DNA of 6,017 bases from positions 1 to 6,017 of the forward strand of contig JAAZYZ010000060.1 of assembly GCA_014239355.1 (NCBI GenBank). The letters are read 5' to 3'. Made by a program: the position numbers and the translations under genes. Below the pieces are notes generated by a model. It was not told the origin of the DNA and made no database searches. It worked only from the letters and a program-made list of their open reading frames with translations. The first letter of the stretch is position 1. Each line of letters opens with the position of its first letter. Source of the stretch: Fidelibacterota bacterium (GTDB lineage: Bacteria > Marinisomatota > Marinisomatia > SCGC-AAA003-L08 > TMED6). Below are positions 4,866 through 6,017 of this stretch, in pieces.

Positions 4866-4957
4866 GGAAGCGAGAGTGCTCTGGTGAGTACCACGGCCTT
4901 CAAAGCCGTTGATAGGCGTTAGTCTATGGTCGGTTCGATTCCGACACGTTTCCGCCA
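4866..4957 (+). tRNA. selC: tRNA-Sec (anticodon TCA), CCA encoded
   Basis: This is a selenocysteine tRNA that decodes UGA with SelB and is charged through SerRS and SelA. It folds as bacterial tRNA-Sec. The acceptor strand GGAAGCG (4866-4872) pairs with CGTTTCC (4947-4953), and the discriminator is G4954, followed by encoded CCA. The diagnostic 6-bp D stem, GTGCTC/GAGTAC (4876-4881 with 4886-4891), has a four-base TGGT loop. The anticodon arm is ACGGC-CTTCAAA-GCCGT with TCA at 4900-4902. A long variable arm, ATAGGC/GTCTAT, covers 4912-4927, and the T arm is GTCGG/CCGAC (4929-4945). The expected eighth acceptor pair is an A-A mismatch (4873 and 4946), and one acceptor pair is G-T. The gene begins 2 nt after the SPOR stop, so it is probably processed from the operon transcript. 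Its presence implies selA, selB and selD elsewhere in the genome. Confidence 0.96.
4898..4947 (+). repeat. intact member of a 50-bp direct repeat within selC
   Basis: This part of selC runs from the anticodon loop (CTTCAAA) through the variable and T arms to the first base of the 3' acceptor strand. It recurs without gaps at 5659-5708 with three substitutions, opposite 4909, 4914 and 4926. Left and right ends are sharp: the flanking bases do not match in the upstream direction. Confidence 0.93.
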
Positions 4958-4965
4958 TTTAGACG

Positions 4966-4998
4966 ACAACACCCCTCACTTATAGAGGGGTTTGTTGT
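4966..4998 (+). terminator. hairpin terminator after selC
   Basis: A perfect stem CCCCTC/GAGGGG (4972-4977 with 4985-4990) has a 7-nt loop. It is extended by ACAACA pairing with TGTTGT across a two-base TT bulge, and followed by a T-rich tract broken by G. It lies 9 nt after the encoded CCA and probably ends the M23-to-selC transcription unit. Confidence 0.8.
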
Positions 4999-5012
4999 TT
5001 CATAGCCACATC

Positions 5013-5075
5013 TTACTACCTTATCCAAACTTCCTCGCAAGTGTCCAAATCATAGAATGCAATAAATGGATCTTT
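5013..5075 (-). other. C-rich patch with a short coding-like minus-strand reading, possible gene relic
   Basis: On the minus strand, from 5075 down to 5013, one frame reads KDPFIAFYDLDTCEEVWIR and then two stop codons in a row (TAG, TAA). An in-frame TAA also lies immediately upstream at 5078-5076, and there is no start codon. The base mix here is richer in C on the + strand than the surrounding AT-rich DNA. It could be the broken 3' end of a minus-strand gene brought in with the segment, but 19 codons are too few to identify a family, and chance is possible. Confidence 0.15.
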
Positions 5076-5124
5076 TTAATAGTCTCATAATTAGTAATCA
5101 AATAAAGCCTCAATAAATAAAAAT

Positions 5125-5130
5125 AAGGAG
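5125..5130 (+). promoter_or_regulatory. strong ribosome binding site AAGGAG
   Basis: A complete AAGGAG lies 7 nt before ATG5138. It is among the strongest Shine-Dalgarno matches in the window and supports the chosen start of the small TPR gene. Confidence 0.7.
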
Positions 5131-5137
5131 ATTAATT

Positions 5138-5575
5138 ATGAAAAAAATAGTACCATTAATTTTGTTGTGTTTTGTTCTTACACAACCTGATTTAGATAAG
5201 GTAATTCAATATGCAAAAGATAGTCTAAATATAAATGAATTATCAAATTTCGGAGTAATAATTGCTCAAGATGGTTATTTTGTTGAAGCGATTTCTATTT
5301 TTAAAGAGGTTACTTTCAGAGATTCTTTAAGAGATAAGGCCTATAATAATATTGGGAATTGTTATTCTGAATTAAACTATCAAGATCAAGCTTTAGAGTA
5401 TTACTTGAAAGCTATAGAAATAAACCCTGAAAATGAACAAACATTACAATCAATAGGTCAATATTATTATGAAAAAGATGAATTAGAATTAGCATTAAAA
5501 TATTTTAAACAATCTGCACAATTAGGTAATCCTATTGTTCAAAATTGGTTAACTAATAATGGTTATATTTGGTAG
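5138..5575 (+). CDS. small secreted or membrane-anchored TPR protein, function unknown
   Basis: The protein has 145 residues. It begins MKK followed by a short hydrophobic stretch (about 4-15), which looks like a signal peptide or anchor. C11 is preceded by ILL, not a good lipobox, so a lipoprotein is unlikely. Three TPR repeats fill the rest, at about 33-66, 67-100 and 101-134. The middle one is the most canonical (NNIGNCYSEL, then ALEYYLKAIEINPENE). The last ends with a Sel1-like pattern, QSAQLGNPIVQNWL. Such repeats bind partner proteins; no catalytic domain is present and the specific role cannot be stated. It is the only gene between selC and the displaced selC fragment, is separated from the upstream operon by a terminator, and must have its own promoter. 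AT content resembles its neighbours, so composition gives no sign of recent transfer. The ATG is supported by AAGGAG 7 nt upstream. Confidence 0.82.
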   Translation: MKKIVPLILLCFVLTQPDLDKVIQYAKDSLNINELSNFGVIIAQDGYFVEAISIFKEVTFRDSLRDKAYNNIGNCYSELNYQDQALEYYLKAIEINPENEQTLQSIGQYYYEKDELELALKYFKQSAQLGNPIVQNWLTNNGYIW

Positions 5576-5598
5576 CAAAAATATAAGGAACTAAAAAG

Positions 5599-5619
5599 CA
5601 GGTAACTCTTTCAAACCTG
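5599..5619 (+). repeat. weak inverted repeat after the TPR gene
   Basis: CAGGT (5599-5603) and ACCTG (5615-5619) form a 5-bp stem with an 11-nt loop, 24 nt after the TPR stop codon. No solid T tract follows, so it is at best a weak terminator or an mRNA 3' hairpin. Confidence 0.3.
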
Positions 5620-5658
5620 ATAATATTTACCCACGATTGATTACATTTGAACAGGGAA

Positions 5659-5708
5659 CTTCAAAGCCGCTGATTGGCGTTAGTCTTTGGTCGGTTCGAT
5701 TCCGACAC
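5659..5708 (+). pseudogene. displaced 3' fragment of tRNA-Sec (selC relic)
   Basis: The fragment matches 47 of 50 bases of selC 4898-4947 without gaps. It keeps the anticodon loop with TCA, the variable-arm sequence and a perfect T arm, GTCGG/CCGAC. It cannot form a working tRNA. The 5' acceptor strand and D arm are missing, and the base stretch before the anticodon loop (GGGAA) does not pair with GCCGC after it. Two variable-arm substitutions create T-T mismatches. The sequence after the T arm (TTAAC) lacks the 3' acceptor strand and CCA. It is best read as an attachment-site-like remnant or decayed duplicate. Confidence 0.88.
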
Positions 5709-5713
5709 TTAAC

Positions 5714-5750
5714 AAAAAAACCCCTCTATAAAGAAGGGATTTTTTGTTTT
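5714..5750 (+). terminator. hairpin terminator after the selC relic
   Basis: An A-run plus CCCCT (5714-5725) can pair imperfectly with AGGGA plus a T-run (5735-5745), with a C-A mismatch, and is followed by TTTTTGTTTTT. The core resembles the terminator after selC (CCCCTC, TATA, then a purine arm), so it looks like a diverged homologue. It would end transcription from the small TPR gene before ileS. Confidence 0.65.
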
Positions 5751-5966
5751 TAGGGAGTTATTCATATTTGAATAATAGTAAAAAATAAACAAACTTAGTA
5801 TGGTACTAATTTATAGTAAACTAATATTATTTTAAAAATTGCATTCATTTCACTATTAAGATATTAAAATAAATTCAAAGTTTATGTGATAGATGTCAAT
5901 TATTATATTTTTACTAAACAAATAACTTTATTTTTACTAAATTTTGGGTCAATAAAAGATATAAAC
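5751..5966 (+). promoter_or_regulatory. AT-rich leader region upstream of ileS with small repeats
   Basis: I see no gene here. Inverted repeats are TTATTCA/TGAATAA at 5758-5775 and TTAGTA/TACTAA at 5795-5809. A 12-bp direct repeat, ATTTTTACTAAA, occurs at 5907-5918 and 5930-5941, spaced 23 bp apart. A weak sigma70-like pair, TTGCAT at 5839-5844 and TATTAA at 5862-5867 with 17-nt spacing, is one possible promoter. No T-box-like specifier structure or antiterminator was recognised. The promoter for ileS should lie in this stretch because a terminator precedes it, but its exact position is uncertain. Confidence 0.3.
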
Positions 5967-6017
5967 ATGGCAAAGAAATTTAAAGAAGTAAATAATCAAA
6001 TTAATTTTGTTGAATTA
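5967..6017 (+). CDS. ileS: 5' end of probable isoleucyl-tRNA synthetase (partial)
   Basis: An ATG at 5967 opens a frame of 17 codons that continues past the right edge. The predicted start MAKKFKEVNNQINFVEL resembles the N-terminus of bacterial IleS, where KFKE and a hydrophobic-acidic FxELE-type segment come before the FW and HIGH-motif regions. Those diagnostic motifs lie outside the window, so the assignment rests on the short N-terminus only. No strong ribosome binding site is visible; AAAAGAT lies about 6 nt upstream. IleS charges tRNA-Ile in the cytoplasm. A related class I synthetase or an unrelated lysine-rich N-terminus cannot be excluded. Confidence 0.55.
   Translation, partial: MAKKFKEVNNQINFVEL

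Follow-up and report, generated by a model that had tools for sequence, protein, structure and literature searches.

In Enterobacteriaceae, selC, the gene for the selenocysteine tRNA (tRNA-Sec), is an integration site of islands. Foreign DNA of 3.4-57 kb has been described at selC, pheU and pheV (PMC6174562). Among the tRNA gene (tDNA) islands identified by Islander, the crossover is centred on the anticodon in 2083 of 3919 (PMC4383910). Gene cassettes flanked by tRNA fragments are reported from additive flexible genomic islands (fGIs) of Candidatus Actinomarinales (PMC7771536), and the additive fGI-2 of Candidatus Methylopumilus, located at tRNA-Lys, ranges from 330 bp to 42 kb with 1 to 63 coding sequences, mostly for unknown proteins (PMC10872708). 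The same source describes tycheposons, tRNA-bordered cargo elements of marine bacteria that measure 4-200 kb and in which the tyrosine recombinase xerD is present (PMC10872708). Here we analyze a stretch of 6,017 nucleotides (forward strand, positions 1 to 6,017 of contig JAAZYZ010000060.1, assembly GCA_014239355.1, Fidelibacterota bacterium), hereafter the window, in which an intact selC is followed by a gene for a TPR protein and a displaced copy of the selC 3' part. We conclude that this layout is probably the footprint of an old site-specific insertion into selC that holds one TPR gene and no recognisable recombinase.

Results

The intact selC, with a TCA anticodon, is called on the forward strand at 4866-4957 by ARAGORN and at 4866-4953 by Rfam, and we read it as the regenerated gene on the attL side. 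A sequence-only reading of the window had reported that bases 4898-4947, from the anticodon loop to the T arm, occur a second time at 5659-5708, where 47 of 50 positions are identical, and the repeat comparison bears this out: both copies lie on the forward strand at a spacing of 761 bp, a pattern fitted to both (at most 3 mismatches) matches only these two sites in the window, and the same pattern has 0 matches in 200 dinucleotide-preserving shuffles. Since the selC anticodon occupies positions 35-37 of the gene, position 33, where the repeat starts, is the first base of the 7-nt anticodon loop CTTCAAA, exactly as that reading had it. The displaced 3' fragment on the attR side (5659-5708) lacks the acceptor strand and receives no tRNA call from either ARAGORN or Rfam; at the acceptor-strand end the intact selC reads GTTTCCGCCA and the displaced copy TTAACAAAAA. 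The enclosed segment had also been described as shorter than 0.8 kb and free of a recombinase, which agrees with the spacing and with its only open reading frame (ORF) of at least 60 aa: this ORF, at 5138-5575 on the forward strand, encodes a 145-aa protein that matches only TPR repeats in Pfam.

Two options had been offered for this layout, an insertion into the tRNA gene and a local duplication. Insertion is the better one, because the content of the slot after selC differs in a relative (G029) and because related genomes show the same layout at other tRNAs, in one case with an integrase. These same observations, together with the breakpoint at the first anticodon-loop base, argue against an origin by local duplication, limited to the 3' half of selC and its terminator, without site-specific insertion, which we judge distinctly unlikely.

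G029 is the closest relative compared, 81% identical to the window over 4.9 kb upstream to selC. In its selC-ileS slot, selC is followed by an ORF for a YgjP-like metallopeptidase, whereas the window has the TPR ORF. Different content at the same site in a close relative, a mark of tRNA cassettes in additive fGIs, is seen here, in one relative only. Positions 4876-5011 of the window are 89.7% identical to G029 contig C30 and the remaining left flank of the cassette (4992-5137, no strand assigned) is not in common; on the other side, the match resumes at 5797. There, window 5797-5963 aligns upstream of a G029 DUF547 gene and 5908-6017 aligns upstream of and into ileS, which delimits a common flank (5797-5967, no strand assigned) and the start of ileS (5968-6017, forward strand, truncated by the window end), identified via its G029 orthologue, which scores above the TIGR00392 cut-off. 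An assembly artefact joining two strains or two loci would be a very improbable source of the layout: matches to G029 keep their order to the left and right of the interval, and the cargo protein is present on 3 contigs, possibly including the window's own.

The selC-YgjP junction of G029 itself exists in two versions, on contigs C30 and C32. The start of C30 shares 91 identical nt with C32 and the end of C32 shares 87 identical nt with C30, and the two versions are probably strain alleles (a fork), possibly a tandem selC copy. For G029 we also considered the DUF547 gene as a further insertion and discarded the idea, as its two flanks align poorly with one another (score 21). PF00589 is matched twice in G029 at E<=1e-8, and one of the two matches is Xer-like. 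YgjP-like genes also stand directly after tRNA-Val(tac) in G017, G018 and G019 (L289, L292 and L291), three among eight further genomes with stretches examined; inheritance of a single arrangement may account for all three, and we leave them out of the support.

The layout at other tRNA genes was assessed for 136 tRNAs from eight genomes (G012, G024, G026, G029, G030, G031 and one stretch each of G014 and G015; G024 covered in part), up to 7 kb downstream, with identical tRNAs taken once and 5 with less than 100 nt dropped. Two of them, tRNA-Pro of G029 and tRNA-Ala of G026, have a long copy of their 3' part, and four, all belonging to G012, have a short copy of 15-17 nt; the opposite-strand control gave 0 matches. 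A seventh match, at a tRNA-Cys, was set aside, as it falls within the neighbouring tRNA-Leu. Downstream of tRNA-Pro(ggg), G029 has a 186-aa ORF without Pfam match (9 homologues at 61-93%); at +731 the 3' part of the tRNA then recurs with 50/50 identity, along with another terminator. Downstream of tRNA-Ala(ggc) in G026, 4.4 kb including a tyrosine integrase gene precede a 49-bp copy at +4442 (98%), with a repeat that extends from within the anticodon arm through the terminator.

The G026 element also lends weight to a variant of the insertion, in which the window holds the remnant of a larger integrase-bearing selC island whose internal deletion left the attachment (att) sites and one gene. 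The degraded state of the displaced copy points the same way, and inserts could not be judged at six selC loci with less than 300 nt downstream. The small interval at the G029 tRNA-Pro, 0.7 kb with a single gene and a 100% identical repeat, suggests instead that small units arise as such, and no integrase match was found in the six window ORFs scanned. A remnant island is a real though minority possibility, and as a sub-case of the same insertion mechanism its odds overlap with those of the reading that we prefer.

Partial copies also occur after selC in other genomes of the phylum. selC was found in 148 of 245 phylum genomes, with one match each in 144 of these. The comparison was limited to selC genes followed by 300 nt or more of sequence, 54 in number, with the window among them and G154 represented twice (the six shorter loci were dropped), and so leaves out most of the 148 genomes; 23 of the genes are seen over less than 1.5 kb and none beyond 10 kb. 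A copy is present at 4 of the 54, window included. In G012, genes for an HTH protein and a HigB-like protein separate selC from a 41-bp copy (98%), of which 11 nt belong to the tRNA and the other 30 nt to the terminator side; with so little of the tRNA in the copy, the anticodon loop is not the crossover point there. Downstream of selC, G003 has a shorter copy of 17 nt, and G160 has one of 25 nt that belongs to a tandem array.

The flanks of the two copies bear on whether the 3' half was brought in or duplicated. Weaker likeness between the copies extends beyond the tRNA, from the terminator-like hairpin 3' of selC (4971-4991, forward strand) to the displaced terminator and old flank (5709-5796, no strand assigned), with a local score of 26 against a maximum of 23 in 1000 shuffles. 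This favors a duplication, though both terminators are CCCCTC hairpins, so part of the likeness may be convergence. Similar terminators had been taken as a hint of a duplicated unit in the sequence-only reading; this does not hold, because the integrase-bearing element at the G026 tRNA-Ala repeats its terminator too. For the flank after the intact selC, the scores are 85 with G029 C30 and 61 with C32; for the flank behind the displaced fragment, the highest score is 36, with C32, ahead of 26 with the post-selC flank of the window itself and 18 with C30. The scores of 36 and 26 each exceed all 1000 shuffles (shuffle means 17.9 and 13.7), and 18 is unremarkable. The displaced flank thus resembles the window's own flank above shuffles, in line with a duplication, but is somewhat closer to G029 C32, which is a point against it. 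These scores fit, if modestly, an insertion in which the incoming DNA would have supplied a new 3' half with its terminator and the old pair would have been shifted downstream. Within the repeat, four bases vary among the window copies and the G029 selC; two join the fragment with G029 and one joins both window copies.

A number of smaller repeats were observed near tRNA genes. In G160 (L239), the selC 3' end stands in a short tandem array with copies about 87 bp apart. In G012 (L319, L325, L331), a short palindromic module lies behind the 3' ends of several tRNAs, together with a copy, 15-17 nt long, of the 3' end of the same tRNA; at tRNA-Met such copies are in tandem, spaced 122 bp, and after the copy at tRNA-Arg(acg) comes a 56-aa ORF with a GIY-YIG likeness by eye only. 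Upstream of the G012 selC, tRNA-Arg(ccg) (L179) has a 15-nt copy of its 3' end 366 nt downstream. Short direct repeats resembling integrase arm sites lie after tRNA-Pro(ggg) in G031 (L351), where the contig ends inside them, and similar repeats flank the displaced tRNA-Pro copy of G029 on both sides (L313). Inspection of the window by eye showed no convincing arm-site motifs.

The cargo TPR protein has a putative signal peptide (by eye only) and nine other proteins 65-80% identical to it in a large protein set. Its family is matched at E<=1e-15 in 4 of the 245 phylum genomes, including G024, where a 40% homologue lies about 600 bp past a tRNA-Met (L177 796-2080). A search of IMG/VR with just the cargo protein yielded no relative; the selC pattern had 0 matches there, and the cargo alignment led to one remote locus (27%) without a tRNA.

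The host phylum of the window is Neomarinimicrobiota; its miaB-like protein is 58-68% identical to the nine best-matching named records, all from that phylum. From the upstream end, the window contains genes for an M23 peptidase, a miaB-like radical SAM protein, a LapA-domain protein, a TPR protein and a SPOR protein, followed by selC, the 145-aa TPR ORF, the cassette right flank (5576-5658, no strand assigned), the selC 3' fragment and the ileS start. Genomes G030 and G031 gave no match to the selC DNA or to the SPOR gene.

Discussion

Several observations weigh against an insertion into selC. No recombinase was matched by Pfam in the 6 forward ORFs (of 8 listed) of the window, intergenic remnants not having been searched. 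The fourth variable base of the repeat joins the intact copy with G029, so that the bases within the repeat do not decide, and the flank scores of 36 and 26, over 88 AT-rich bases, differ modestly. As many as 50 of the 54 selC genes are without a copy, and a tRNA stands upstream of the cargo-family match in one of four genomes (G024), with none in the stretches examined around the other three matches. The sequence-only reading had proposed comparing the selC-ileS interval in relatives for empty sites or other content, and the outcome is mixed: G029 has a different gene in the slot, but no empty site (selC without insert) was seen among the genomes compared and only one relative shares the slot, so the comparison speaks for insertion only in part. 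The G029 sequence around ileS showed no match to a displaced selC fragment, and further genomes of the family are uninformative for this slot; in G023, for example, selC and ileS are about 46 kb apart. The missing recombinase and the missing empty site are also points in favor of a duplication.

On balance we prefer a site-specific insertion, which could have proceeded as follows. A small element with a selC 3' half and terminator of its own would have crossed over with the resident gene within the anticodon loop; the most likely agent is a tyrosine recombinase that acted in trans or was later lost. Joining of the resident 5' half with the element's 3' half would have kept selC whole, and the old 3' half and terminator would have been displaced 761 bp downstream, ahead of ileS, with one TPR cargo gene in between. 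Later, the displaced copy would have lost its acceptor strand. When the flanks were joined in silico, a tRNA was called again in G029 (Pro), G026 (Ala) and G012 (selC), and none in the window. With no acceptor strand in the displaced copy, excision via the repeats would leave no recognisable selC, and we infer that the cassette has been fixed, or "locked in", by this loss.

A wider scheme, which we consider rather doubtful, is that Neomarinimicrobiota might have a tRNA-anchored system that functionally resembles integron cassettes, with units of about 0.7 kb (one gene, tRNA 3' half, terminator) moved at anticodon-loop sites by a shared tyrosine recombinase in trans, and with acceptor-strand loss as a latch that makes excision destroy the tRNA. 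In this uncultured marine phylum, gene capture seems to have made use of selC, even for an insert of one gene with no recognisable recombinase, and once the displaced copy had decayed, such an insertion would no longer be reversible. If a trans-acting recombinase is found, single-gene capture at tRNA sites in streamlined marine bacteria becomes directly testable.

How the window relates to known systems can be stated point by point. An integron cassette would have an IntI integrase nearby, and Pfam shows none among the six window ORFs scanned. Tycheposons share with the window tRNA-bordered cargo in marine bacteria, but they are larger than its insert of less than 0.8 kb and have a tyrosine recombinase, of which none was found in the window (PMC10872708). 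Islander islands, as described, combine a regenerated tRNA gene with a displaced fragment on the same strand, both seen here, and require an integrase gene between tDNA and fragment, where the window has only the TPR ORF (PMC4383910). The anticodon-centred crossover, common among these islands, is also what we propose for selC here. As in fGI-2 of Candidatus Methylopumilus, the tRNA 3' end is repeated, but in fGI-2 the repeated part is the final 20 nt of the tRNA (PMC10872708), and in the window it is a 50-nt segment that starts at the anticodon loop and does not include the acceptor strand. The islands of Enterobacteriaceae at selC share the integration site in a different phylum, and the titles and abstract openings of the literature searched contain no description of selC insertions in Marinimicrobia. 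The cassettes of Candidatus Actinomarinales likewise come from streamlined marine hosts; the window differs from them in the selC target, the Neomarinimicrobiota host, the single gene and the degraded displaced copy (PMC7771536). Taken together, the insertion is a tRNA-targeted additive island of a known kind, with the selC target, the host phylum and the degraded displaced copy as its own features.
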